From: a virus
Direction: 5' to 3' (one strand)
DNA length: 46,145 nucleotides
Virus record (IMG/VR): IMGVR_UViG_3300025960_000006
Location: 1 to 46,145 of that record
A program made the translations under genes and the position numbers. Shown here in pieces: positions 4,334 to 32,204 of this stretch. How positions within the stretch are numbered: position 1 is the stretch's first letter; the number at the start of each line of letters is the position of its first letter. Under the pieces are notes generated by a model. It did not search any database, had not been told where the DNA came from, and worked only from the letters and a program-made list of their open reading frames with translations.

Positions 4334-7300
4334 TCACCTGATTCGTATTCTTGGTCGACTAGACTGGTAACTTGCTGTGGCAGTTTCCATGGAATCGTAA
4401 CCATCAAGATAAAGCGCCGCAGCATAAGCAGGAATCAACTGTTGCTGAGTAGTGAACTCCATATGTTCAATCGCATCGTATCGCTCCATCAACATCTCCC
4501 AGCGTGGGAAGCAGCGTTGATGATATGGGTAATTCTCACGGAACGGCAGTGTAGGATCAATTGTAGCCATCTCAGGATCAGCCTGAGGTTCAGCTATGCG
4601 GTTAATAAAGCTCTGGCCGAAGAATACAGGCAAGAATGGATAGTTGTTCGCCCAGCCTTCACTACATAGCCCAATTGGAAATGTCTGATTATTATAACGA
4701 GAGTCTATGTGTAGAGTCTCCAGGAGATTCCGGACTCCAATCCCTTTAGTCATACAAATACCCATTTGGTTTGCGCCATGGCGATGTTGCATTGCATATT
4801 GCATAGCACGTCGGCATCGCCGAGCGTTTGTCATATCGCCGTCGCGCGCAAACGCTATAGCGCCAATTGTCAAGCTTGGCATATTATCAATGAAATTATT
4901 GGCGCCTCCAAAGCCCATAGACCAGAACCCAGGATACTGGCCGTTAGCATATGTTACGTCAGGAGCCTCTTGATAAAGACACCACGCACTGAGGGCTCTG
5001 TCTTTAATTAGTGCGATGCAAGCATCACGAATGGTTGAATTTGCACCAGGAGCGTTAGCGTACTCAAAACTGCCATACAGATTAGCTGGTGCAGACGCGC
5101 CTGGCGGGAAGAGTGAGTCACACACGGTTTTGTACGTTGTGAGTCCTGTTAGGTAAAAGAGTGCTGCAGCAGCATTAGGGTACCATGTCGGAAACTGCGA
5201 AGCTAAGGATGCAATAGTCGCATTATATTGCGCAGTCGTCCACTGTGCTCGAGTCTTCACAGGTAGATAATGAGCATCACGAGTAGTCGCATCTGTATGA
5301 ACTAAAACAGCCCAATCATAAGCTGCAATGGCGGACGCCTTATATGTATTCGAGAGCGCTGTATAACCCATAGTGGCTAGGATACGTGCAAGTTTCGCTG
5401 CAACGAAGACATACTGTATGCTCGTTATGTGGTCTGGATACCAAGTGTAGACGGACATAGAAGTGTTCCAGCTAGTTTCATAGCCTGGAATACCTTCGCC
5501 GTAGTTCATGCCTGCACTTACTGCCCCGCTGCCCTGTTGGCTCTGCCTAACCTGCTCTATGCCCCAGATCACTTCAACAATCGGTGAAGGCAATCCGTTC
5601 GTTCCCGCAAAGATCGTTGGATCAAGCCCTATCTCCAGACACGTTGGAATACCGTAATTTATAGCCAACCTGCTAGTCGAATTTAGAAACTCGAATGTTG
5701 TGAGTATCTGCGACCACCCTCCATGCGTCTCCGGAAAGCGTACGTCCCAGTCTCCTGCATCCGAGTGTCCTCCGTAAGCAGGGTCTTCGACGGACGTGAT
5801 CCAGGGTTCATAGCCCCCACCTGCACCTACCGGATAGCCTGCGTCGTGAATGCCATTCGTAGTACCTGCAAGGCTGTAGCCAGACATAGCATACGGAACG
5901 TAACTCTTATAGACCTTGTATGTGGACGTGTTTCTAAAGTTAAGCGGTCGCGTGTAGCCAAAACGACCATCTTGCACACAACCCATTCGTTGATGGTAAC
6001 AACCCTTAGCATATACTGACGCTACAGTGTTCCAAATTCGGTCGTCGATAATTATAGGATCAGAGACCCCGATGCCAGGAAGCCATATGTAGTACGTGCC
6101 TGGCGATAAGGTTGCAGTAGAGTAGTCCAATCCATAGACGTATGTCTGCGAGCGATTTCCATTCATGTTGACTCGGAAGCATAGGTTTCCCTTATTTCCC
6201 GAGGTACTCTGAGTAAAGTCACTGAAGCCTGTACTGTTTACTCCAACAAGATCGAAGCTGTTACCTGACTTGTTCCCTACAGTATGAAAAAGCTGATTTC
6301 CTCCAGGAGCGTCAACTTCAGACATGCCGCCATTAGAGGCAGCACCCGCGGTATAGTGAGTCATACCAACACAAACGACCCTATCACCATTAGACAAGCT
6401 TGACGCATCGTCTACTGTTACACGAGCTGTCGTAGCCTTTGTGATCCCGCTTATCTTCATTGGCTTAGGCTGAAACACCTCATACGGAACTTGCTCTACA
6501 TGCTGCGGCGCATCAAACGAATGACCCTCGACCGATGTCGGCGTCGCACGCTGCACCGGGGCACCACTAGAGGTGAACACAACCGTTCCAGCCGCATTAA
6601 TTATGTACCAGTTTGCGATACCGGCGAAGCTAACTTCACCATCTGTACCTTTGCCAGGAACCCACTCACTCAGGTACGCAAGCTTACCTACATCATTCGG
6701 CCTGTGACCACTTTGGTCAACATGAATGGCACGACATCGTGTCGATTTCTCCTGGAACGTGAACGTGTAAGCATTAATCGAGGCTCCTGGAGGAAACGTA
6801 ATAGTGTACGAAGACCCAGACGTCAGTGTTCCGCTGAGCTGAAGATAGATTGTATGCTTAAACGAAAGACAAGGTTGCTGAAAATTCGTTCCAACAAACA
6901 TTCCGCCACCACCACTATACGGCTTTGTTTTAAGGTACATACCCGTAACCGTAAGCCCTCCCGTAATGCCATAATTCGCAGCGACCTTTGCCGCCTCACG
7001 ATCTAGATACGTCGTCGAACGAATGTCTGAATATCTTCGCGTTTTACCATCACGGCCGACGAGCAAGCACCATTGAGGTGTACCAAGAATGGGATGCGTC
7101 CGCTGTACAAACGTGTTAGGGTCTATAAGAACGCCACCTGAGGTATATGTGTTCGTAAACACAGAACTCTGCAAATCGATCGTGCCTGAGCCCGAACGTG
7201 ACGCTGCCCAATGCCGGTTTGCCTCAGTTGTACCCACAGTGCTATGAACAACTATACGGTTCAGCTCACCAAGATACGCGGCAGACTGTCCAAAGAACGC

Positions 7301-8812
7301 CGCCCCACCAGTATACGCATTCACGAAGGCTGAAGGAATGCCGCTGTCCACTTGTTCTGGGAATTTGGAGAACCTATTCTCCAGAAGTATGTGCGTCCCA
7401 TCAACAACAGTAAGTTTCCAGTTCGACCATTCATCAGTGCAGTTAGCCTCAATGCATCCGCGAGCACCACGAATGCCACAAAGCTGGCCTGTAGTGTAGC
7501 CTGCGGTACTCCACACAGTGCAGAGAATTTTTCCTCCTGCACCTGCTCCCATAGCTTGAATGTACGTCGCACCCACATTAGCTGCGAACGTAGTCGTCAG
7601 CCGAATATGGCCATGGCCATTATTCACCGCTCCTGTGATAGGGTATGTGCCTGTCCCCGAATCAGGTGAACTTAATACCTCGGTGTACCCCTGAATTACA
7701 GGCGGATCGACCACTTCCACACATATCAGTGCATTCGTCCTGTTGTCCACTGTGCTGAAATCTTGAACGGTAAAAGTCGAACCTCCTCCCCCTCCGCCGA
7801 CGTAGTAAACTTCGGTCAGTGAGGTAAAGTAGATAGTATTAGCAGAAACGGTGCCACCAACATCAGTCGTTGCAGCAACATCCCCCGATGTAGCTGCACC
7901 AGTGTATCCTGTAACACCAGAACCAGTAGAACCGAAGCCTCCACTAATGGAAGCATGCACGCGAATGACAAGCGGCTTGGTTTTATTGAAAGCATAGGTT
8001 ACCTCGTCGCTTGTCACTAACGCTTGAGGAAAGCCCACAGACCCAGTTACGTTTCCACCAAATGTTACTTGTACTTGTGTACCATCGAAGTCCCAAGCAT
8101 CTCCACTACTAGCAGCATGCCCAACATACATCTTATCCCAGGTGACACCGCTAGTATTACCTCCCTGAACAGTTATACGCAGCTTACTCCCCGTTGCTGG
8201 AACCGAACCGTCATAGGCAGCTACAGGGACAACTTGTGATAGAGTCTCGGTTGAGGCTGTTCCAATCGACGAGTTCAACGTGATGTTATGAAGAGTGAAC
8301 CAATTAGCCTCGGGGGTAAAAACCTCGACACGAGCAACGCCAATTGAGGAATTTGCAGAAGCCGGAGTGTAACCTGCGACGTCAGTAGTAGCCGCCTCAT
8401 CCACGCTAGCTTTAATATAGCTAGTCCAGCCAGTACCGCTCGCTTGGCGTAAATCGGAAGCGCCGCTACAATGAAACGCAACAACTAGCGGCTTCGCTTT
8501 ATCAAATGCGTAGTCCGCAACGTCACCAATTCGAAATGTTGAGATATTCCATGTAGTTGAGGCGAACGCCGACAGTTGAACCTGTGTGCCATCGAAATCG
8601 TAAGCATCGCCACTTGTAGCGGCGTGGCCAACATACACCTTATTAGCAGTAGCACCAGCAGCGCTGCTTATAGTTACGCGAATCTTTGTGCCAGTGGCAG
8701 GAACGCCAGCACCATACGCCGATACAGGAACAACGACACGTATAGTGTAACCGTTTAGATCGCCGGTGTTACCGCCACCTGTTCCGAGATTTACTAGGTC
8801 TTTCCAAGGCAT
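4334..8812 (-). CDS. Giant tail spike with duplicated N-terminal module and GH9-like glycosidase domain
   Basis: A 1492-residue protein, the second largest of the phage. The N-terminus carries two tandem copies of a beta-rich module of about 160 residues (VYVGHAATSGDAYDFDGTQV and MYVGHAASSGDAWDFDGTQ), then beta-rich linkers. The C-terminal third (from about residue 880) looks like a family 9 glycoside hydrolase: a beta-sandwich, then a helical barrel containing GGHSDAGDWD with the paired Asp1018/Asp1021 that GH9 enzymes use as base. The acid Glu was not identified. The likely role is degradation of host exopolysaccharide or a cellulose-like capsule at adsorption. The first module repeat needs the ATG at 8812, which directly abuts the 13-bp palindrome and has no Shine-Dalgarno. 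Carries a one-mismatch palindrome at 5111-5123. The GH9 assignment is from motif recognition only. Confidence 0.8.
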   Translation of the reverse strand: MPWKDLVNLGTGGGNTGDLNGYTIRVVVPVSAYGAGVPATGTKIRVTISSAAGATANKVYVGHAATSGDAYDFDGTQVQLSAFASTTWNISTFRIGDVADYAFDKAKPLVVAFHCSGASDLRQASGTGWTSYIKASVDEAATTDVAGYTPASANSSIGVARVEVFTPEANWFTLHNITLNSSIGTASTETLSQVVPVAAYDGSVPATGSKLRITVQGGNTSGVTWDKMYVGHAASSGDAWDFDGTQVQVTFGGNVTGSVGFPQALVTSDEVTYAFNKTKPLVIRVHASISGGFGSTGSGVTGYTGAATSGDVAATTDVGGTVSANTIYFTSLTEVYYVGGGGGGSTFTVQDFSTVDNRTNALICVEVVDPPVIQGYTEVLSSPDSGTGTYPITGAVNNGHGHIRLTTTFAANVGATYIQAMGAGAGGKILCTVWSTAGYTTGQLCGIRGARGCIEANCTDEWSNWKLTVVDGTHILLENRFSKFPEQVDSGIPSAFVNAYTGGAAFFGQSAAYLGELNRIVVHSTVGTTEANRHWAASRSGSGTIDLQSSVFTNTYTSGGVLIDPNTFVQRTHPILGTPQWCLLVGRDGKTRRYSDIRSTTYLDREAAKVAANYGITGGLTVTGMYLKTKPYSGGGGMFVGTNFQQPCLSFKHTIYLQLSGTLTSGSSYTITFPPGASINAYTFTFQEKSTRCRAIHVDQSGHRPNDVGKLAYLSEWVPGKGTDGEVSFAGIANWYIINAAGTVVFTSSGAPVQRATPTSVEGHSFDAPQHVEQVPYEVFQPKPMKISGITKATTARVTVDDASSLSNGDRVVCVGMTHYTAGAASNGGMSEVDAPGGNQLFHTVGNKSGNSFDLVGVNSTGFSDFTQSTSGNKGNLCFRVNMNGNRSQTYVYGLDYSTATLSPGTYYIWLPGIGVSDPIIIDDRIWNTVASVYAKGCYHQRMGCVQDGRFGYTRPLNFRNTSTYKVYKSYVPYAMSGYSLAGTTNGIHDAGYPVGAGGGYEPWITSVEDPAYGGHSDAGDWDVRFPETHGGWSQILTTFEFLNSTSRLAINYGIPTCLEIGLDPTIFAGTNGLPSPIVEVIWGIEQVRQSQQGSGAVSAGMNYGEGIPGYETSWNTSMSVYTWYPDHITSIQYVFVAAKLARILATMGYTALSNTYKASAIAAYDWAVLVHTDATTRDAHYLPVKTRAQWTTAQYNATIASLASQFPTWYPNAAAALFYLTGLTTYKTVCDSLFPPGASAPANLYGSFEYANAPGANSTIRDACIALIKDRALSAWCLYQEAPDVTYANGQYPGFWSMGFGGANNFIDNMPSLTIGAIAFARDGDMTNARRCRRAMQYAMQHRHGANQMGICMTKGIGVRNLLETLHIDSRYNNQTFPIGLCSEGWANNYPFLPVFFGQSFINRIAEPQADPEMATIDPTLPFRENYPYHQRCFPRWEMLMERYDAIEHMEFTTQQQLIPAYAAALYLDGYDSMETATASYQSSRPRIRIR
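5111..5123. repeat. Near-match 13-bp palindrome (12/13) in tail spike
   Basis: GAGTGAGTCACAC differs from the consensus only at position 2. It lies in the longest stretch without an exact copy (3971-8813). Confidence 0.6.
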
Positions 8813-22305: not shown

Positions 22306-22589
22306 GTCAGAAGGTATTCGTTAAGACAGAGAAGTGCCTTGCGTGCGACTTGAAGCCAGGGGAATTGTTCATCAAGGAATTACCTGATCAGGAGTACTTT
22401 GGTCGGGAGTTGAACAGAGCACATGCCGCATTGGGCGTGTTGCTCCGTACGAATGTCGGGGCTCGAGATGCACCAGACAGGGAGGACATGGTTTACAGAG
22501 TTCATATCGTGATCATTGATCGTGATGATCCGTTACCTCCGAGGGTTGATCCACATAAGCCGCCAGGAGCTAAAGATGACAGACGTTGA
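22302..22589 (+). CDS. Small protein with CxxC, unknown function
   Basis: A 95-residue protein with CLAC near residues 12-15. Coupled to its upstream neighbour (ATGA) and overlapping the helicase start by 14 bases. No family was recognised. Confidence 0.7.
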   Translation: MSQKVFVKTEKCLACDLKPGELFIKELPDQEYFGRELNRAHAALGVLLRTNVGARDAPDREDMVYRVHIVIIDRDDPLPPRVDPHKPPGAKDDRR

Positions 22590-23784
22590 GTTTAGTCTGG
22601 AGCAGAGGAACGCCATTGATTTGTGTTGTGATACGCATACGACGATTGCCAGTGTTACAGGGGGTGCAGGTGTTGGGAAGACGCTAGTAATGGGGGAGGT
22701 CTATAATGAATTAGTAGACATGAAGAAGTCCGTCGCGCTGTGTGCTCCAACTGGACGCGCAGCGAAACGTATTGAGGAACTGACAGGGATCAAGGCACTG
22801 ACGGTACATAGGTTGTTATCGTTTCCAATGCCGTATGAGAACCAGGATAAAAAGCTTGACCCTCATTTGCCAAGAATGAATAAGGAGAACCCGCTGAAGC
22901 ATGACGTTGTGATTGTGGACGAGTCGTCTATGATTTCACCTAGTCTGTATAGGTTCTTGATTGATGCGTTGAAGAAGGGGGCAGTCATTAGATGGTTTGG
23001 GGATAACAATCAGCTGCCGCCGGTCGAGGAGGGAAAGCCACCGTTCCTGACACTGCTAAGGAAGCACCCAAAGGTGGAGCTGACGTATAACTATAGAAGT
23101 GGCGATGCTATTGTAAGCAATGCGCAGAGGATACTACGGGGGCAGTTACCGTTAAGGAATGAGCGGTTTGAGATTATCTATAGTGAGAACCCATTGATGA
23201 CGATGTTTGAGTTCGTGACAGAGCACTTCATGCAGGAGGATCATCAGATTATCATGCCCACACGGAAGGGCAAGGCTGGAACGCTTAGAGCTAATCCGTC
23301 TTTGCAGGTGAAATTCAATAGCAAGGGGCCAATGCTAAGGCTGGATAGGTTCGAGAAGAGTGAGGCGCCTTTGACGGTGAGGGCAGGGGATAAGTTCATA
23401 TGGATTAAGAACGATTATCATCTGAACCTATTCAATGGGGAGATTGGGTATATTGATTGGATTGATGCGGATGCGGGTGACCTTGGGATTGTGACGGGGG
23501 CGAGGTCGGAGCAGATACCGCCAAGGATCAAGTTCTATGATCCATTCGTAGGGACTGTGCTTAACTATGACCCGAGGAAGCAGATCGAGTTAGGGTATGC
23601 GATCACGACGCATAAGGCTCAAGGCTCGGAGTTCGATACAGTTGTGTACTGTATGAGTAGGAGTCAGATGTGGCTGTTGAATAAGCGGAACTTCTATACA
23701 GGGATCACGCGGGCGAAGAAGAACGTGATACTGATTACAGACAGGAAGGCAATGGGTCTAAGTATGAGACAGTATGATGTGTGA
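22576..23784 (+). CDS. RecD/TraA-like SF1 DNA helicase
   Basis: A 402-residue ATP-dependent helicase. Walker A GGAGVGKT is at residues 29-36, CAPTGRAAKRI follows as motif Ia, then VVIVDESSM (motif II), FGDNNQLPPV (motif III), GYAITTHKAQGSEFD (motif V) and YTGITRAKKNV (motif VI). It is shorter than RecD2 and lacks the long N-terminal part. It probably opens DNA for phage replication or recombination; no replicative DnaB-type helicase was seen. ATG 22576 has AGGAG upstream. It ends in GTG-TGA inside the palindrome. Confidence 0.9.
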   Translation: MTDVEFSLEQRNAIDLCCDTHTTIASVTGGAGVGKTLVMGEVYNELVDMKKSVALCAPTGRAAKRIEELTGIKALTVHRLLSFPMPYENQDKKLDPHLPRMNKENPLKHDVVIVDESSMISPSLYRFLIDALKKGAVIRWFGDNNQLPPVEEGKPPFLTLLRKHPKVELTYNYRSGDAIVSNAQRILRGQLPLRNERFEIIYSENPLMTMFEFVTEHFMQEDHQIIMPTRKGKAGTLRANPSLQVKFNSKGPMLRLDRFEKSEAPLTVRAGDKFIWIKNDYHLNLFNGEIGYIDWIDADAGDLGIVTGARSEQIPPRIKFYDPFVGTVLNYDPRKQIELGYAITTHKAQGSEFDTVVYCMSRSQMWLLNKRNFYTGITRAKKNVILITDRKAMGLSMRQYDV

Positions 23785-23791
23785 CTCACAC
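23779..23791. repeat. 13-bp palindrome copy 23
   Basis: Exact GTGTGACTCACAC; it supplies Val-stop to the helicase gene and is followed by GAGGAG and ATG 23806. Confidence 0.95.
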
Positions 23792-23805: not shown

Positions 23806-24054
23806 ATGACCGATATTGCTGAACAGTTACAAGGCGTGGCTGTCCATCTCGACAACCACAATAATGAGTGGGCTTCCCGTATCGCATTTGAAGCCGTTAA
23901 CGAGATCGAGTGGCTGCGGGCGCTCTTGCGCGAGCCCACGCCGGAAATGCTAGACGCAGCCGAGCAATACAATCGCGAACACATTACGGGCGAGTGGTCC
24001 TTTGCGGACTGCTACCGCGCCATGACGCGCCGCGCACTGGAGCCAAAGCCGTGA
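23806..24054 (+). CDS. Small early protein, unknown function
   Basis: An 82-residue acidic helical protein (residues about 50-78 PEMLDAAEQYNREH...). It has a good GAGGAG Shine-Dalgarno. No family was recognised. It is followed by a hairpin that separates it from the PEP-CTERM gene. Confidence 0.72.
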   Translation: MTDIAEQLQGVAVHLDNHNNEWASRIAFEAVNEIEWLRALLREPTPEMLDAAEQYNREHITGEWSFADCYRAMTRRALEPKP

Positions 24055-24057
24055 GTT

Positions 24058-24091
24058 CAGCGCAGTGGGCATCGTGGTGCCCATCACGCTG
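24058..24091 (+). terminator. Hairpin between early gene and PEP-CTERM gene
   Basis: CAGCG and CGCTG flank TGGGCA and TGCCCA with a small loop. It is a strong stem without a T run, possibly a Rho-dependent or partial terminator. Confidence 0.45.
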
Positions 24092-24117
24092 CACCCCCGC
24101 AGCAAATGGAGAAGAAG

Positions 24118-24669
24118 ATGAAGAAGCTACTACTCGGAACGGCGCTGTTCATCGCTGGAATGGCGTCTGCGAATGCGGCAGTAGTTGCCAACCTTGGAGT
24201 GAACCCAACTTCGAGGACGGGTGACTTCGCGAGTGGCACTGTCGGTGTGAATGCTACTGGAGCAGGGGCCTTCACCGATCAGGTTGTATTCAGTCTGCAA
24301 GGTGGTCCCCAGTTCCTCACCATCTCTAGCGCGACCAATGTCTATCCGGCCACGACAGACTTCATCACTAACTTTACCGCTCAAGGCTTCCGTATTGTTG
24401 GAGGCATTGGTGGTGGAGATGATGTCCCAGTGACACCTGTGCTGGCGGCTACGTCGTGTCCTACGCAGTCAAACTGTCAGGGCTTTGCTGGGAGTGCGTT
24501 ACTTGCTGCCGGTAACTACTACCTGCAGCTGTCCGGCATTGGTGGTGGTACGAGTGGCTATGGTGGTAACCTCGCAGTGACACAGGTACCGATCCCAGGA
24601 GCACTGGCCATGTTTGGACTTGGGCTGGCTGGTCTTGGTCTGCTCAGCCGTCGTCGTAAAGTAGCGTAA
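24118..24669 (+). CDS. Exported PEP-CTERM-type protein
   Basis: A 183-residue protein with a Sec signal peptide (residues 1-20, cleavage after SANA), a Gly/Thr-rich beta-like mature region containing one Cys pair (ATSCPTQSNCQ), and a C-terminal sorting tail. The tail is VPIPGA, then a hydrophobic helix, then SRRRK at the very end. This three-part tail is the PEP-CTERM/VPxPA signal cut by exosortases, which places proteins in the biofilm matrix or on the surface. Such a protein is unexpected in a lytic-looking phage. I chose ATG 24118 (GGAGAAG upstream) rather than the in-frame ATG at 24106. Hairpins on both sides make it look like an acquired cargo gene. Confidence 0.82.
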   Translation: MKKLLLGTALFIAGMASANAAVVANLGVNPTSRTGDFASGTVGVNATGAGAFTDQVVFSLQGGPQFLTISSATNVYPATTDFITNFTAQGFRIVGGIGGGDDVPVTPVLAATSCPTQSNCQGFAGSALLAAGNYYLQLSGIGGGTSGYGGNLAVTQVPIPGALAMFGLGLAGLGLLSRRRKVA

Positions 24670-24719
24670 TCGAACACGTCCGCTGGTGGTTGCATAGTCC
24701 TCGTGGCCAGTGGACGTTA

Positions 24720-24753
24720 GGCCCGACACCTTACTGCCGTTCGGTGTCGGGCC
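24720..24753 (+). terminator. Hairpin terminator after PEP-CTERM gene
   Basis: GGCCCGACACC and GGTGTCGGGCC are perfect 11-base arms with a 12-base loop, 51 bases after the stop. No T run follows. Confidence 0.6.
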
Positions 24754-24760
24754 GCCCTCA

Positions 24761-24773
24761 GTGTGACTCACAC
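24761..24773. repeat. 13-bp palindrome copy 24
   Basis: Exact GTGTGACTCACAC, nine bases before the polymerase ATG. Confidence 0.95.
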
Positions 24774-24782
24774 TTGCTAGGA

Positions 24783-27278
24783 ATGATCATGGATAGAACA
24801 ACACTCAAACTGGACTTTCAAGATCTTGCGGCGCAGCTGATGCTAGAGACAGAGGTGTTCTCAGATGGACCAACAACGTGCAACGTTGCGATTGTCGGCG
24901 AGGGACCGGGAGAAACTGAGCTTCGCCATCCTCAGAGACTTCCTTTCGTTGGTGGAGCGGGCAACCTTCTATGGGACAGTCTCCGATCCTTTGGCCTCAA
25001 TCGAACAAACGTTTATACTACTAACGTCGTTAAAAGACAGATCAGCCTCTCGAGAAAAGGAAACGAACGACACATTGTTCACCGTGACGAATTGGATAAA
25101 TGGATCGGAATGCTTAGGTGGGAACTTGAGCAGCTCCCAAATATCAACACTATCTTTGCGATGGGAAACTATGCTCTCGAGGCTGTTTACGGGGCCTCAG
25201 GAGTTACCAACTGGAGGGGCTCTGTTATTAACGCAACGCTGCCTAATGGTAGGAGAGGGCGAATTGTGTGCGCGTATAACCCTGCCTATGCTATCCGTGA
25301 GCTTAAGTTTGAGCCGGTGTTTCGAATGGACTGCAAAAAACTGGACCTTGTCGCTCGAAACGTCTTCAAAGAGCACAAGGTGGACGCCATCATCAACCCC
25401 ACGTTCAGGGAATCCATGGCATTCATCCGAGACTTGGAGAGATCAGAGAGACCAGTGAGCTTCGATATCGAGACGATGAACACAACGGAGACAGTGTGTT
25501 ATGGCCTATCGAATAACGCGCATAAAGCTATATGTATCAACCTCCGTGACAAGGACTGGAACCGCTTCACTGTACCAGAGGAGCGTAGTCTTCTACTGGC
25601 CTTGCAAAGACTGTGTGACTCACACAGAATTGTGGCACAAAACGGGTCGTTCGATACGTATCATGAGTGGCTTCGCAATGGCCTACGGATCAGGATTTGG
25701 TTCGACACGCTACTTGCACATCATACTCTCTACCCCCAGCTTCCTCACAGCTTGGCGTTCTTGGTTTCACAGTATACTACCCACCCGTTTTACAAGGACG
25801 AGGGAAGGCGATGGAAAGAAGGAGGCGACGTTGATAGTTATTGGATTTATAACTGTACCGACGCCGCGACGACATACGCCTGTTATGAAGGACTCGCCAA
25901 AGAACTTAAAGCTCAGGGACAGGAAAAGTTCTTCTTCGACCACGTGATGCGTGCACAGCCACATCTGGTCGAGGCGGCTGTGCATGGGGTGCAGGTAGAT
26001 ATGAGTGTGAGGGACGTCATTGCGGATCAGGTGAATAGAGATGTGGACGAGTACAAGGCTGAGTTTCATAGACATGTGCAGGAGTTGACGGGAGAGCCTG
26101 ACTACTATCCGAACCCAGGGTCGTGGCAGCAGCTACAGGACTTGTTCTTTAACAGGCTGAAGCTGAAGGGTAAAGGTACGAGTACAGACGAGGCGAATAG
26201 AGAGAACATTATGAAGGACTCTAGCACGCCTCCGCAGGCTAGGGAGATGATCAGTGCGCTGACACGGTGGAAGAAAGAAGACAAGTTCCGTGGCACATAC
26301 GTGGAGTCTAGGGTTTCTCCGGATGGCCGGTTTCGATGTGAGTACAAACAATATGGGGTTGCTCGCGCCCCAGGCCGGTTATCCAGTGCGGCGCTTATAT
26401 ATGGAGAAGGCGGAAATATGCAGAACCAACCCATGCGTGCGAGGAGCATGTATGTTGCTGATCCTGGCTGTGTCCTGCTGTATTTTGATTTGGCCCAAGC
26501 CGAAGCGCGTGTTGTCGCGTACCGTGCTAATATCCCAAAGTGGAAAGATCAGTTCGAACAGGCTCGAATTGATGGTAAGTACGACTGTCATCGAGCCCTA
26601 GCATCAGAAATGTTTAAGGTGGAGTATGATAATGTCCCAACCAAAGACTGGAACGCCGACGGGAGTCCGACTATACGCTACGTTGCGAAAAGATGCCGTC
26701 ATGGTCTTAACTATCGCATGGAAAAGTGGAAACTTGCAGAAGTCACTGATCTACCGTTCCACCAAGCCTCTCGTGCCTGGTCAGTCTATCACGCTATCAC
26801 GCCTGAACTTCGCGCGTGGTGGGGTGCGGAAGAAAAGCAGTTCAAGCTAACGCGCGAGATTTACAATGGTATGGGCCGTAGGTTTAAGGTGATCCAGCGT
26901 ATCGATGACGATGTTCTTGATAGTATCATTGCTTTCTATCCACAGTCCACGATCGGAGATAAGGTTACGCGCGTTTGGTATATGTGTGAGGAGGACGACG
27001 CTTGGCCCGATAGGATGTACGCTCGTATCGCCATAGATGTGCATGACAACCTCGTACCTATCGCGCACCCACGATATGCTAAGACGTGTCTTAGGATAAT
27101 GAAGAAGCATGCCGAGTCCCCTATTATGGTTCAAGATGTGTACAAGAACAAGCCGGAACCATTGATAGTTCCGGCAGAGTTGAAGATGTCATACCCAACC
27201 TTGTGGGATGGTGAAGCGTTTGTCGAAGACCCTCAGGGTCTACACAGGTGGAGTCACATGAGAGAGGTTCACCTGTGA
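24783..27278 (+). CDS. DNA polymerase I with N-terminal uracil-DNA-glycosylase-like domain
   Basis: An 831-residue three-part protein. Residues about 30-200 match family 4/5-type uracil-DNA glycosylases (GEGPGETE at 39-46, PFVGGAG at 54-60), but the second active-site motif reads YNPAY with Asn166 where family 4 has His. A 3'-5' exonuclease follows (Asp228/Glu230 in FDIET, Asp291 in NGSFD, Asp360 in YNCTDA). The family A polymerase has motif A Asp569 (YFDLAQAEAR), motif B Arg632/Lys636 and motif C VHDNL at 753-757, where the usual HDE Glu is Asn756. It is the replicative polymerase. The start at ATG 24783 follows the palindrome. Contains a palindrome copy encoding CDSH. Confidence 0.9.
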   Translation: MIMDRTTLKLDFQDLAAQLMLETEVFSDGPTTCNVAIVGEGPGETELRHPQRLPFVGGAGNLLWDSLRSFGLNRTNVYTTNVVKRQISLSRKGNERHIVHRDELDKWIGMLRWELEQLPNINTIFAMGNYALEAVYGASGVTNWRGSVINATLPNGRRGRIVCAYNPAYAIRELKFEPVFRMDCKKLDLVARNVFKEHKVDAIINPTFRESMAFIRDLERSERPVSFDIETMNTTETVCYGLSNNAHKAICINLRDKDWNRFTVPEERSLLLALQRLCDSHRIVAQNGSFDTYHEWLRNGLRIRIWFDTLLAHHTLYPQLPHSLAFLVSQYTTHPFYKDEGRRWKEGGDVDSYWIYNCTDAATTYACYEGLAKELKAQGQEKFFFDHVMRAQPHLVEAAVHGVQVDMSVRDVIADQVNRDVDEYKAEFHRHVQELTGEPDYYPNPGSWQQLQDLFFNRLKLKGKGTSTDEANRENIMKDSSTPPQAREMISALTRWKKEDKFRGTYVESRVSPDGRFRCEYKQYGVARAPGRLSSAALIYGEGGNMQNQPMRARSMYVADPGCVLLYFDLAQAEARVVAYRANIPKWKDQFEQARIDGKYDCHRALASEMFKVEYDNVPTKDWNADGSPTIRYVAKRCRHGLNYRMEKWKLAEVTDLPFHQASRAWSVYHAITPELRAWWGAEEKQFKLTREIYNGMGRRFKVIQRIDDDVLDSIIAFYPQSTIGDKVTRVWYMCEEDDAWPDRMYARIAIDVHDNLVPIAHPRYAKTCLRIMKKHAESPIMVQDVYKNKPEPLIVPAELKMSYPTLWDGEAFVEDPQGLHRWSHMREVHL
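25613..25625. repeat. 13-bp palindrome copy 25 (inside polymerase gene)
   Basis: Exact GTGTGACTCACAC, read as Cys-Asp-Ser-His. Confidence 0.95.
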
Positions 27279-27641: not shown

Positions 27642-27648
27642 CTCACAC
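27636..27648. repeat. 13-bp palindrome copy 26, convergent junction
   Basis: Exact GTGTGACTCACAC. It supplies GTG-TGA to the plus-strand gene, and its other end is the G of TAG for the minus-strand gene, so one element ends both arms. Confidence 0.95.
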
Positions 27649-30600
27649 TACATCAAGTCAGGGTACATGAACGGTGACGGCTCGGATGGTTGATCGAACG
27701 GTTTAAGGTCTTTTAGCCTGATCTCCTTGCCGTACTTTGCAGACATAGCAGTCTCGACGGCTCGTCGAACGTAGTTGATAACTCTGAGGGCCTCGAACTG
27801 CTTCTTCCTATAGAAGTTCACGACTTGTTGCCGATCGGTGGTGTCGATGCCGGACTGCTCAAGTTCCTCCTTGGCGTCAGGTTCCATTTCACGCTGCCAC
27901 CGATCATAGGTACCATGGTTTACGTCTTTAAGGCGTTCGAGTTTCTGTGTGGCTGTTCCATAGTTTCGCCACAGAGATTTGAAGCCTATGCCCCCTTGGT
28001 CCATACCTTTGACCATGTTAGGGCTTTCCTTCATGTATCGGTTATAGAACTCTTGCATATACTCGTTGTAGAGGGGATTGATTGGCATGCCTTGTTGTAA
28101 GCCAGGATTGCCTGGACTGAGCTGTTGGAGTCCGTACTGTTCCTGCGCAGCTATACCACCACCAGTACTCGCAGGCTTAACGCCGATCCGTCCCTCGTTG
28201 ACTGTCCATTTCTTGAAGAACCGTGAGAGGTCGTTGAACTCCTTCTGGTGTTCGAACACTTCCTTTGATAGGTCGGTGACGTTCGACACGTCAGGTAACG
28301 TGCCAATGAGGTCACGGAGGATCGGTGTCTTCCTAATGTTGATGTCTCTAGCCTGCTTCATACCGTTGTTCACAGCATTCCACCAACCACCCTCTGACTG
28401 TGTTGCTGCTGCATAGAAACCACCGAGTGACTCGGCCACACCGCCGAACATTGCGCGGGTGGCCAGTTCGAGGCTGGTAGGTAACCCGCCATTCTGATTG
28501 AATGGGTCACCCTTTACTGGATAAGCAACACCGCCGAACATACCCTGCGGACCTCGTATACCGTACGCCCCGAATGCTGTGTTGACGATTGGTGGCATTG
28601 GAGGAATGACCGCAGTGTCAAGGAACATGTGCGCGGCAATCCACAGGTCTTCGTTCAGTGGGCGTCTTGCTGTTACGTTGTCGGGCATGCCTAGTAGGAA
28701 GTGACTGGGGTCATCCTTTGGTATGCCGCTGCCAAGCATGTGGTGCCATGCAATTTCAGCAGCGCGTTTGAATGGGTTGAGTTCGTGGAAGAACGTAATC
28801 TCCATAGACTTTTCGACAGGCTGGCCTGGAAGTGGAACGGCGAAGTTCATCTGTCGATTGAACGCGCTTCGACCATTCAAAATCCAGTCGACATAGCTAC
28901 GTCCGTTAGGATCACCGCCCTGAGCGTCAAGGGCCTTGGCGTAGTAAAGTAGCCCAACCGCAGGAGCCATGGCATAGAGCGCAGTGCTTCGTGTGAATCG
29001 CACAGGGTCATGGAGGAAGGCTTCGCCGATACGCTTAGCGCCTTGCAGTGTAGGGTTCCACCACGGAATTGCGTTCTTGCCTATGTTCTCAGCGGTCCAG
29101 CCATAACCTTTGACTAGTGTATGTGCAATCCTTTGAGTCATCGATCCATCAGTTTCGAATCGAATGGGTCGTTTGTTGCTGTCCCGACCAACGTAGTACT
29201 CGCCACCAACTCGAGGGTCACCTGTCAGACGGCGAGCACGCAGGGCTAGGTCGGGAGCCGACTCGGTCCCTAGGTTTCGTTTGACAAAGTTGAAGGCTGG
29301 TCCATTATGGATCGACTCGATAGATGCTTTCCAGGCATTCCAGAAGTGCTGCGCTCCACGAACCGTGTTGCTCGCCGCTGCATTAGCGTCGAACCACTTA
29401 GTAACGTCTTCTAGCCCCTTAGCGCGCGCTTGCTGTTCGAGGACACTGCCGCGATGGGAGCCTGCTGCCTTGAGCTGGGCGTACACGCTTTCGTCGTAGA
29501 CAACGGCAAGGCGCTTCGATAGTCCATCCATCCAGCCCTTACCATAGATTTCACCAAGCATTCCTGCACTACCGTTCTCGAGGCCGCGCGAAATCGATTT
29601 AGCGATCTGAGGGATCAGTTGCTGAGGAATGGCAAGCAATGTTCCGACGGCCGTCGGTGCCTTGAAGCCTTGTTCTGTAGTGAACTTGGCAATCCAGTAT
29701 GAACGGATCGCGCTGGTGACGGCGAAGTTAGGCGCGAGTACGCCAGTAGTCGTACTCTCCAACATGCGCTTGGTCGAATGAAGGGCGTTCCCTCCCCATC
29801 CAGTGATTGTGGTATGGTCAAGGCGCAGTACGTCGGCTAGGAAAGGATCGGTCGTGTAGTATTCTGTTTGACCTCGACGTTTAAACGATACGACGTTCTG
29901 CTTCCAAGAGGGGTTCTCGGCTAGTTGCTCCTTGGTCACTTCCACGAATGAGTCGGGATTGCGCTTGCGCATTGCGTCGACGTATCGACCGACAGCCTCG
30001 TTGTCAAGGCGCTCCTTGATAAGTCCGCGTGCCATGTCTGCCTGCGACTCAATGGCATTGGCTCCCGTCTCTTTTCCACGAAGGTTTCCGAGAGCGTTCG
30101 GGCGTGAGCTGTTTAGGAAGGCTTGACTGCCGTCATCCATGGCAGGTTTATTTGGGTCGAGATGCTTCTTCGGAACGGTACCGTATTCGCCGCTAGCTTG
30201 AAAATCGCGGATGGCTTTGTTCCATCCTTGGTTGGCTTTTAGCATATCTCTGAGGCCAGGATCAGCACGCTCCAAGTCTGAGATTGCTTTGGTTACGTCG
30301 TCGATAGTCTGGCCTTCAAGCGTCGGCGGTCCTGCCTTAGGAGTCTTTCCCTCAGCAACCTCGTACTTGCGCATCTGAGACATGAGCGTGAGTTCGTCTG
30401 CTCGGTCCCACAGCTTAAGATAGGTATCTGACTGGGCCGTTGACTGCCTTGCCATATCGTTCAAGGCAACTGGCGCATTGAACCGGAATGATGGCGTTTC
30501 CATCCTGGCGGTTTCAACAGCGCTATCTGCAAGGGCACGCCCCCCTTGCCGAGTCGTGATGCGGAAGTTCTTATCGAGGCTATCGACTACCTCTTCTGGG

Positions 30601-32204
30601 ATGCCGTTACGCTCAGCGATTCGAGCAAGGGGAGCATTGATATCATCGGCAGCACGGATAGCATCACCAAGCGTGCTCGTTGCAATGGTTCCAGGGGCAG
30701 CATTGGCAACTTCGCGTGCTGTTCCTGCCTCGACTGTACGAACCGCAGGAAGCTCTGCCCTTGAGAACCTAGCGAAAACCTTCGGTGCGAGAATCATTCC
30801 GACCAGTGTGCCACCAACGACTCCCATAGCCTTGTATTCAGACTGCGAGGTCTTCTGCATACCTGCGACTGACTGGAAGATTTCCATGGCAGTCGGGGAG
30901 TAGGTACGTGCTGCGATCTCCTTCGCGACCCAGGCGTTCTCCACTCGTTGTGCGAAAGCCTCGTCGGACTCGGCACCAACACGTTCGCCTGCTCTATTCA
31001 GTCGCCCCTTGCCCTGGCTCAGTTTGGGTGGTGTGGTTGTACGCATGTCTGGAGGAGGGATTGTCATTCCCTCTGGAACGGTAGGAGCCTCAGCGCCTTT
31101 CTTTTGTCTGTCTGTGTGAGTCACACTAGGTACAATTGCCGACCCCGGTACGACAGTTGAGCCTGGGATCGTGGGGGCGGATATGGTTGGTGCGCCTGGT
31201 GTCGGAGCTACTGCCACTGGTGGTCCTGACAGCGCCGATGGAGGCTTAGTGGTTCCTCGAGATTCAGCAAAGCCAGCCTCGGCAGGAGTCGTGACTGAAG
31301 GAATGGGTATCTCACTGGTGTCGAGTGCCGTTAGACCTGCTCGCGCAGCGACACCGGTTAGAGTAAGACCTGCTGTAGTCAGGGCGCCTTTCATTGGCAT
31401 GAAGTATTCGCCGGTCCAGACACCTGCCTGTTCTACAGCGGTCTCAGGCTTCAAGCCTGTGGTGCCTGTCACGGTCTTAGTAAGTCCTCGCGTACCTTCC
31501 GCAAGCTCGTTGAGGTAGTCGGCGACGTTCTGCATCGTCGAACTCTCCTCGACTGCCTGCATGCCACCCACGTGTCGAGCAGAGCGCGGTACGTCCTCCC
31601 GTGGAGTATTTGCCTCGATGCCTGCAAGGAATTGTGCTCCTGCGGCTGGGAGCGAGTAGACCAAACTGCCAAGCTCAGCGGCTTTCTGTCCTGCAAATCG
31701 TATCGGCCGCGTCATTTTATCCAGAGTCTCCATCGGAGTCTCTGGCTTGAACGGTCCTTCTTGTTCACGAGGAAAGAAGTCGGGCTCTGTGATCGGACGG
31801 TCGTGTACTACGCCGCGACGGGTTCGAAGCGCAGCGAGTTCGAAAGGGTCAGTCGTTGCGTAGTCTTCCATCGGCCCACGAGGCACAGGCTCTGGAAGAG
31901 GATCGGGCTCGGTAATAGGCTGAGGGATGACGACAGGTTGCTGGTCGAGATCGTGCATCTCCGTGAGGGGAGCAGGTCGAGGGAAACGCTGAGCCGCCAG
32001 GACGGGGTCACCGGCTTCTGGTGGAGCGCTAGGCTCTGATAGTGTTGTGTCGGGTGTGTAGTTAGGATCGCCCCACTCTAGCAACATTCTAAGCTGTTTA
32101 GCCTTCTCGTCTTCTTCGGGACTGAGGAGTGCCTGTAGCTCTTCCTGAGCGTCAGGAGGCGTGAACGAGCCTTCAGGGCCTCGACGAGCTGAGCGGAATG
32201 CCAT
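27648..32204 (-). CDS. Giant internal virion/ejection protein
   Basis: A 1518-residue protein, the largest here. The N-terminal 400 residues are Pro-, Glu- and Thr-rich and low in structure. A hydrophobic Gly/Ala stretch lies near residue 450 (MGVVGGTLVGMILAPK), and the rest is mostly helical, with another hydrophobic stretch near 1080 (ALYAMAPAVGLLYYAKALDA). Size, late position after small internal proteins and the helical build fit ejection proteins of short-tailed phages, which leave the capsid and span the envelope at infection. No lytic transglycosylase motif was seen. The start lies two bases after the palindrome. It carries an exact palindrome (31114) and a one-mismatch copy (28991). 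Confidence 0.75.
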   Translation of the reverse strand: MAFRSARRGPEGSFTPPDAQEELQALLSPEEDEKAKQLRMLLEWGDPNYTPDTTLSEPSAPPEAGDPVLAAQRFPRPAPLTEMHDLDQQPVVIPQPITEPDPLPEPVPRGPMEDYATTDPFELAALRTRRGVVHDRPITEPDFFPREQEGPFKPETPMETLDKMTRPIRFAGQKAAELGSLVYSLPAAGAQFLAGIEANTPREDVPRSARHVGGMQAVEESSTMQNVADYLNELAEGTRGLTKTVTGTTGLKPETAVEQAGVWTGEYFMPMKGALTTAGLTLTGVAARAGLTALDTSEIPIPSVTTPAEAGFAESRGTTKPPSALSGPPVAVAPTPGAPTISAPTIPGSTVVPGSAIVPSVTHTDRQKKGAEAPTVPEGMTIPPPDMRTTTPPKLSQGKGRLNRAGERVGAESDEAFAQRVENAWVAKEIAARTYSPTAMEIFQSVAGMQKTSQSEYKAMGVVGGTLVGMILAPKVFARFSRAELPAVRTVEAGTAREVANAAPGTIATSTLGDAIRAADDINAPLARIAERNGIPEEVVDSLDKNFRITTRQGGRALADSAVETARMETPSFRFNAPVALNDMARQSTAQSDTYLKLWDRADELTLMSQMRKYEVAEGKTPKAGPPTLEGQTIDDVTKAISDLERADPGLRDMLKANQGWNKAIRDFQASGEYGTVPKKHLDPNKPAMDDGSQAFLNSSRPNALGNLRGKETGANAIESQADMARGLIKERLDNEAVGRYVDAMRKRNPDSFVEVTKEQLAENPSWKQNVVSFKRRGQTEYYTTDPFLADVLRLDHTTITGWGGNALHSTKRMLESTTTGVLAPNFAVTSAIRSYWIAKFTTEQGFKAPTAVGTLLAIPQQLIPQIAKSISRGLENGSAGMLGEIYGKGWMDGLSKRLAVVYDESVYAQLKAAGSHRGSVLEQQARAKGLEDVTKWFDANAAASNTVRGAQHFWNAWKASIESIHNGPAFNFVKRNLGTESAPDLALRARRLTGDPRVGGEYYVGRDSNKRPIRFETDGSMTQRIAHTLVKGYGWTAENIGKNAIPWWNPTLQGAKRIGEAFLHDPVRFTRSTALYAMAPAVGLLYYAKALDAQGGDPNGRSYVDWILNGRSAFNRQMNFAVPLPGQPVEKSMEITFFHELNPFKRAAEIAWHHMLGSGIPKDDPSHFLLGMPDNVTARRPLNEDLWIAAHMFLDTAVIPPMPPIVNTAFGAYGIRGPQGMFGGVAYPVKGDPFNQNGGLPTSLELATRAMFGGVAESLGGFYAAATQSEGGWWNAVNNGMKQARDINIRKTPILRDLIGTLPDVSNVTDLSKEVFEHQKEFNDLSRFFKKWTVNEGRIGVKPASTGGGIAAQEQYGLQQLSPGNPGLQQGMPINPLYNEYMQEFYNRYMKESPNMVKGMDQGGIGFKSLWRNYGTATQKLERLKDVNHGTYDRWQREMEPDAKEELEQSGIDTTDRQQVVNFYRKKQFEALRVINYVRRAVETAMSAKYGKEIRLKDLKPFDQPSEPSPFMYPDLM
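28991..29003. repeat. Near-match 13-bp palindrome (12/13) in the ejection-protein gene
   Basis: GTGTGAATCGCAC differs at one base and lies in one of the longest gaps between exact copies. Confidence 0.6.
31114..31126. repeat. 13-bp palindrome copy 27 (inside ejection-protein gene)
   Basis: Exact GTGTGAGTCACAC, read as Val-Thr-His-Thr on the minus strand. Confidence 0.95.

Follow-up and report, generated by a model that had tools for sequence, protein, structure and literature searches.

The stretch of DNA analysed here (the window, 46,145 bases) is an IMG/VR virus record that carries terminase, major head protein, tail and endolysin genes, and it is a phage from soil. On its replication strand (+), between a RecD-like helicase gene and a polA gene whose product bears an N-terminal domain of the uracil-DNA-glycosylase superfamily, lies a gene for an exported protein of the FxDxF family, preceded by a small ORF with which it forms a cassette (Table 1). 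An alternative upstream ATG at 24106 would give a product of 187 aa, but because the GGAG element stands at good Shine-Dalgarno spacing from the ATG at 24118, the latter is the likely start. The window also holds two long ORFs on the minus strand, at 27648-32204 (1518 aa), for which no Pfam match was found, and at 4334-8812 (1492 aa), which gave a single, sub-threshold Pfam match and no PHROG match.

Table 1. Features of the FxDxF cassette and its flanking genes in the window.
Feature	Position	Strand	Basis or remark
RecD/Dda-like helicase	22516..23784	+	phrog_4412 E 4e-67; AAA_30; homology to L091 from 22570
Palindrome GTGTGACTCACAC, upstream end of cassette, over helicase stop	23779..23791		repeat scan
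82-aa ORF, upstream in cassette	23806..24054	+	no family match
Hairpin upstream of FxDxF gene	24048..24103	+	stretch 24040-24106 folds at -26.7 kcal/mol, z -2.8
GGAG ribosome-binding site	24108..24111	+	sequence; 6 nt before ATG 24118
FxDxF-family PEP-CTERM-type exported protein gene	24118..24669	+	183 aa; NF038126 63.7 bits vs cut-off 50
Sec signal peptide MKKLLLGTALFIAGMASANA, AxA cleavage site, no lipobox cysteine	24118..24177	+	sequence; AxA-type site conserved across family
Beta-sandwich body with TTDFITNF, GNYYL and GGTSGYGGN motifs and covarying cysteine pair	24178..24585	+	alignment, AlphaFold model
VPIPGA sorting motif	24586..24603	+	sequence; profile match
C-terminal transmembrane helix LAMFGLGLAGLGLL	24604..24645	+	AlphaFold helix 165-186
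Basic SRRRK stop-transfer cluster	24646..24660	+	sequence
12-bp hairpin just past stop codon	24676..24717	+	fold of 24666-24790
11-bp-stem hairpin downstream, no T-run	24720..24753	+	stretch -31.5 kcal/mol, z -5.5
Palindrome GTGTGACTCACAC, downstream end of cassette, before polymerase start 24789	24761..24773		repeat scan
DNA polymerase A with uracil-DNA-glycosylase-like domain	24789..27278	+	PF00476, PF03167; phrog_17

The encoded protein has the architecture of an exosortase substrate, with a signal peptide at one end and a motif, a transmembrane helix and a basic cluster at the extreme C-terminus. By inspection, the KK-hydrophobic-AxA pattern places the predicted cleavage between MKKLLLGTALFIAGMASANA, which ends in ANA, and AVV. 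The following 136 residues constitute the body, and the tail then runs in the order VPIPGA-LAMFGLGLAGLGLL-SRRRK-VA (full C-terminus VPIPGALAMFGLGLAGLGLLSRRRKVA). Further membrane spans are absent, since the AlphaFold model shows only strands over residues 25-160. Both cysteines of the covarying pair are present in 18 of the 21 aligned FxDxF members and both are missing from the other three, which form one clade, as would be expected of a disulfide formed outside the cytoplasm. The signal peptide, beta-rich body and VPIPGA-helix-SRRRK tail that the earlier note had described are thus confirmed.

The curated NCBIfam model NF038126 (FxDxF family PEP-CTERM protein) matches over residues 9-184 with an E-value of 2.3e-17, above its cut-off (Table 1), so that by this test the protein, on its sequence, is an FxDxF family member over nearly its full length. 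The tail-only models TIGR02595 (13.9 against a cut-off of 16) and PF07589 (17.9 against 20.7) stayed just below threshold; the tail in itself is a VPIPG variant that generic tail models under-score. The PEP-CTERM-type identity proposed earlier is therefore borne out by the curated family model, while the generic tail models narrowly fail to recognize it. Like the NF038126 proteins of Gram-negative bacteria, the phage protein combines a full-length match with a signal peptide, an FxDxF core and a C-terminal sorting tail. However, those proteins are encoded on bacterial chromosomes and end in VPEP-type tails, whereas the gene described here lies in the replication operon of a phage and its product carries VPIPG; moreover, the TTDFITNF and GGTSGYGGN motifs, which are common to the phage members, were confirmed in none of the scanned species genomes. 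A tail resembling that of the phage protein (best stretch 152-185) is also found in the flocculation protein PepA (NF033554), for which a role in tying exopolysaccharide (EPS) to the cell has likewise been proposed (PMC9850573), but the body of the phage protein is not matched by the PepA model (32.6 bits against a cut-off of 80).

Modelling with AlphaFold gave a beta-sandwich (residues 25-160) followed by a helix (165-186) at a mean pLDDT of 76 when 21 sequences were supplied, while the model built from 7 sequences was poor (pLDDT 62). The closest structural (VIA) matches of the pLDDT 76 model, of moderate strength, were PPC/collagen-binding domains from secreted collagenases (Z 9.3; 91 residues at an rmsd of 2.4 A), tied with a few other beta-sandwich folds, and Pfam PPC gave no match up to E 1. 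Foldseek returned nothing with E < 1e-3, its top match being a CBM35 domain (E 3e-3), and the jelly-roll-like body is weakly similar to carbohydrate-binding modules (CBMs) and to a phage tail spike domain. The predicted fold would fit a ligand-binding surface domain and proves no ligand.

In the nearest relative (L005) the FxDxF gene occupies the same place, and a dN of 0.059 against a dS of 0.373 between the two copies gives a ratio of 0.16; the protein is therefore being kept by purifying selection. In a more distant relative (L091) the gap between helicase and polymerase measures 273 bases, compared with about 1 kb in the window, where it holds the 82-aa ORF and the FxDxF gene. Because L091 has no FxDxF gene at this position, the gene is dispensable for this phage type; elsewhere in its early region L091 encodes a different secreted protein (1840-2511), belonging to what we call family B. 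The hairpins that had been noted on either side of the FxDxF gene are real (24720-24753 and 24048-24103; Table 1); both lack a U-tract, and neither was listed by the terminator scan.

In both the window phage and L091 the secreted-protein cassette is flanked by copies of the palindrome GTGTGANTCACAC. This 13-bp palindrome occurs throughout the window, with 76 strand-wise matches at 38 places when up to 2 mismatches are allowed, compared with a mean of 1.6 in shuffled sequences. The sites in the window (about 36-38) include those at 1620, 3959, 8813, 23779, 24761, 37944, 39821 and 41670, and many copies stand directly 5' of start codons. The same palindrome was also found in L091 (11 sites) and L005 (9 sites), and it is absent from 110 of the 117 loci. 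It resembles a start-associated repeat or a stoperator network.

Scans of IMG/VR viral contigs, which are predicted viruses, recovered about 20 different FxDxF bodies, and NF038126 recognizes each of the 21 phage sequences in the alignment with an E-value of 0.1 or better. Two of the FxDxF-bearing phages encode an adjoining second, unrelated secreted protein, that of family B, and a scan of viral contigs for the latter found 93 relatives; 79 loci were retained, with 61 distinct proteins. Family B, which is marked by an FEHxRID motif and has no NCBIfam body model, is thus present at 79 viral loci at least (L013-L091). Phage markers (RecE/RecT, DNA polymerase, primase, terminase, endolysin, tail fibre or integrase; 25 probes) were detected in 58 of 76 non-redundant stretches. 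The substrate genes are co-stranded with replication or recombination genes at 33 of 41 loci and opposite in strand to structural genes at 17 of 21. At two loci (L006 and L007) the FxDxF gene stands beside the terminase gene, outside the replication cluster; in L007 (2506-4343) it lies between the terminase gene and that of a tail-spike-like beta-helix protein, and the FxDxF stop codon is overlapped by the start of the latter.

Pattern scans for two of the tail classes revealed more body families in viral contigs, such as NDGPDSFF and APNQALGFA, which likewise bear more than one tail class (L118-L180). Some of these contigs have identifiers in the style of isolate genomes and may be prophages with known hosts. 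Neither the FxDxF protein nor family B had a match among INPHARED phages or PLSDB plasmids, and tail-only searches of plasmids returned nothing usable. Likewise, no cellular relative of the FxDxF protein was confirmed when 84,980 species genomes were scanned twice with patterns, although these scans used exact short motifs, which distant relatives could escape. The best matches of the terminase, helicase and polymerase were remote and mixed, and therefore no host could be derived from them. The gene at 24118 belongs to a phenomenon that is widespread among phages and in which tails are exchangeable, an aspect that the earlier note had missed.

Every complete FxDxF and family B member ends in a sorting tail of one of three exosortase-type classes, which were drawn up after the data had been seen. 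The PEPxxWA class includes 19 family B members and three FxDxF members that match NF035944, and the VPLPA/VPIPG class includes five FxDxF members that match TIGR03370, while no curated NCBIfam model matches the third class, VPGPxxGAGLPGL. On trees built from the bodies only, the tail class changed about 15 times in family B and about 7 times in FxDxF. Tails were found to differ even between closely related bodies, as in L052 and L020, which are 86% identical in the body and end in PEPxxWA and GAGLPGL tails, respectively, and at least two tail classes occur in each of the five recurring body families that number four members or more. Conversely, in all 13 of the 13 phages with two unrelated substrates, both substrates had the same tail class (mean of 4.7 after shuffling, p 2e-5). 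After the addition of more loci the agreement stood at 17 of 17, or 18 of 18 with L096, corresponding to about 15 independent cases as three phage pairs look related; the second candidate of L024 and the third of L109 were left out as chance ORFs. In the counts of tail classes, the L011 tail (VPIPGALALFASGL, not GAG) and that of the L096 family B protein were assigned by hand. In L037 two unrelated bodies share a common 30-residue tail with a single difference. Tail class thus tracks the phage and not the body, as would be expected if a host-specific enzyme reads the tail.

A search for exosortase (PF09721) in which the control genome, M. jannaschii, was detected found none in 51 phage records, namely the window and 50 related ones. 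Since the phage itself lacks an exosortase, any sorting must be the work of the host, in agreement with the dependence on a host enzyme that had been proposed. In the bacterial PEP-CTERM/EpsH system the substrates are built alike, with a signal peptide, one C-terminal motif followed by a helix and a basic cluster, and no other membrane span, and the exosortase EpsH was proposed to cut such tails, whereupon the proteins join the exopolysaccharide (Haft et al., 2006; PMC1569441). However, that system includes the enzyme, whereas in the phage only the substrate was seen, with neither an exosortase nor an EPS locus. Overexpression of the PEP-CTERM protein PepA was reported to decrease soluble EPS and to increase bound EPS, so that EPS was bound to the cells (PMC9850573).

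In summary, we consider it probable, at roughly 60%, that the gene encodes a protein destined for the surface or the EPS of the infected cell, which alters the envelope by way of the host exosortase, and that tails are exchanged to fit the host while bodies are kept. According to this model, the FxDxF protein would be expressed with the replication genes, probably early given the position of the gene, exported by the Sec system of the host and anchored in the inner membrane through the helix at its C-terminus. The host exosortase would then recognize VPIPGA and presumably process the protein, which may be released or become attached to the exopolysaccharide and outer surface of the host. There, the carbohydrate-binding-like beta-sandwich could alter the envelope, most likely by retaining EPS or by masking receptors, with the possible benefit that other phages would be unable to adsorb and that the infected cell would stay in its aggregate. 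Tails would be exchanged so as to match the sorting enzyme of the host, and the bodies would persist. The candidate purposes are superinfection exclusion, EPS retention or an exosortase decoy. The core of the earlier reading, a phage-borne protein of PEP-CTERM type in a phage without exosortase, holds, while the roles it attached to the protein (coating the cell, blocking superinfection or altering the EPS) are best regarded as suggestions.

If the protein acted as an exosortase decoy, the phage substrate would flood the host exosortase, leaving host PEP-CTERM proteins unsorted and weakening the EPS coat for release or for the tail spike. The retention of the tail in every complete member and its matching within each phage are what a decoy would require, and several unrelated bodies use the tail. 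However, a decoy would need no conserved body, yet the protein is under purifying selection and its body motifs are invariant across phages, which makes this explanation unlikely. It is also rather doubtful that a bacterial PEP-CTERM gene was simply acquired by accident and is carried without benefit. Although FxDxF is a bacterial family by annotation and carriage varies among phages of one group, such passive cargo is difficult to reconcile with the dN/dS of 0.16, with the occurrence of at least five recurring body families in dozens of phage contigs and with the failure of both species-genome scans to confirm a cellular relative.

A virion decoration or tail-associated adhesin whose beta-sandwich binds polysaccharide would be in line with the jelly-roll-like fold, which weakly resembles CBMs and a domain of a phage tail spike. 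The position of these genes mostly on the replication-gene strand, opposite the structural genes, together with the signal peptide and the C-terminal membrane anchor, nevertheless disfavours a virion part, and this alternative is improbable; the best reading is that the FxDxF protein does not belong to the virion. A unimolecular spanin, a lysis protein with an N-terminal outer-membrane anchor, a beta-rich ectodomain and a C-terminal inner-membrane helix, follows a similar plan of signal, beta body and C-terminal helix, but is highly improbable here given that none of the 21 members has a lipobox cysteine at the end of the signal peptide, that the gene lies among the replication genes, a long way from that of the endolysin (501-1619), and that the protein matches the curated PEP-CTERM model NF038126.

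The preferred reading, a protein that alters the surface of the infected cell, resembles phage morons for superinfection exclusion or surface conversion, which likewise are accessory envelope proteins thought to change the host surface. To our knowledge, none of these uses exosortase sorting. We found no description of PEP-CTERM proteins as a phage-encoded class in the open-access literature. Proteins of the TIGR03118 family, which likewise carry an exosortase-interaction domain, were reported in viral contigs among the genes transferred to viruses of Yellowstone hot springs (PMC11003980). TIGR03118 is a family other than that of the phage protein, and tail exchange, phage context and function are not given in the parts of that report concerned with these proteins.

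The wide distribution of phage-borne tailed proteins suggests that phages commonly borrow the sorting route of the host to change the surface of the infected cell. Moreover, phages of soil and freshwater bacteria probably encode a large class of surface proteins routed by exosortase, in which a few recurring bodies bear exchangeable tails that track the enzyme of the current host and which remodel the cell surface. Little is known of what PEP-CTERM proteins do, and phage substrates provide a direct way to ask about their role at the surface, while conserved bodies with swapped tails represent a natural experiment on exosortase specificity. If the proposed reading is correct, the exosortase/EPS system would be a new pathway among those of the host that are exploited by phages, the tails of phage proteins could help to match exosortases to their substrates, and the tail class could predict the hosts of uncultured phages.
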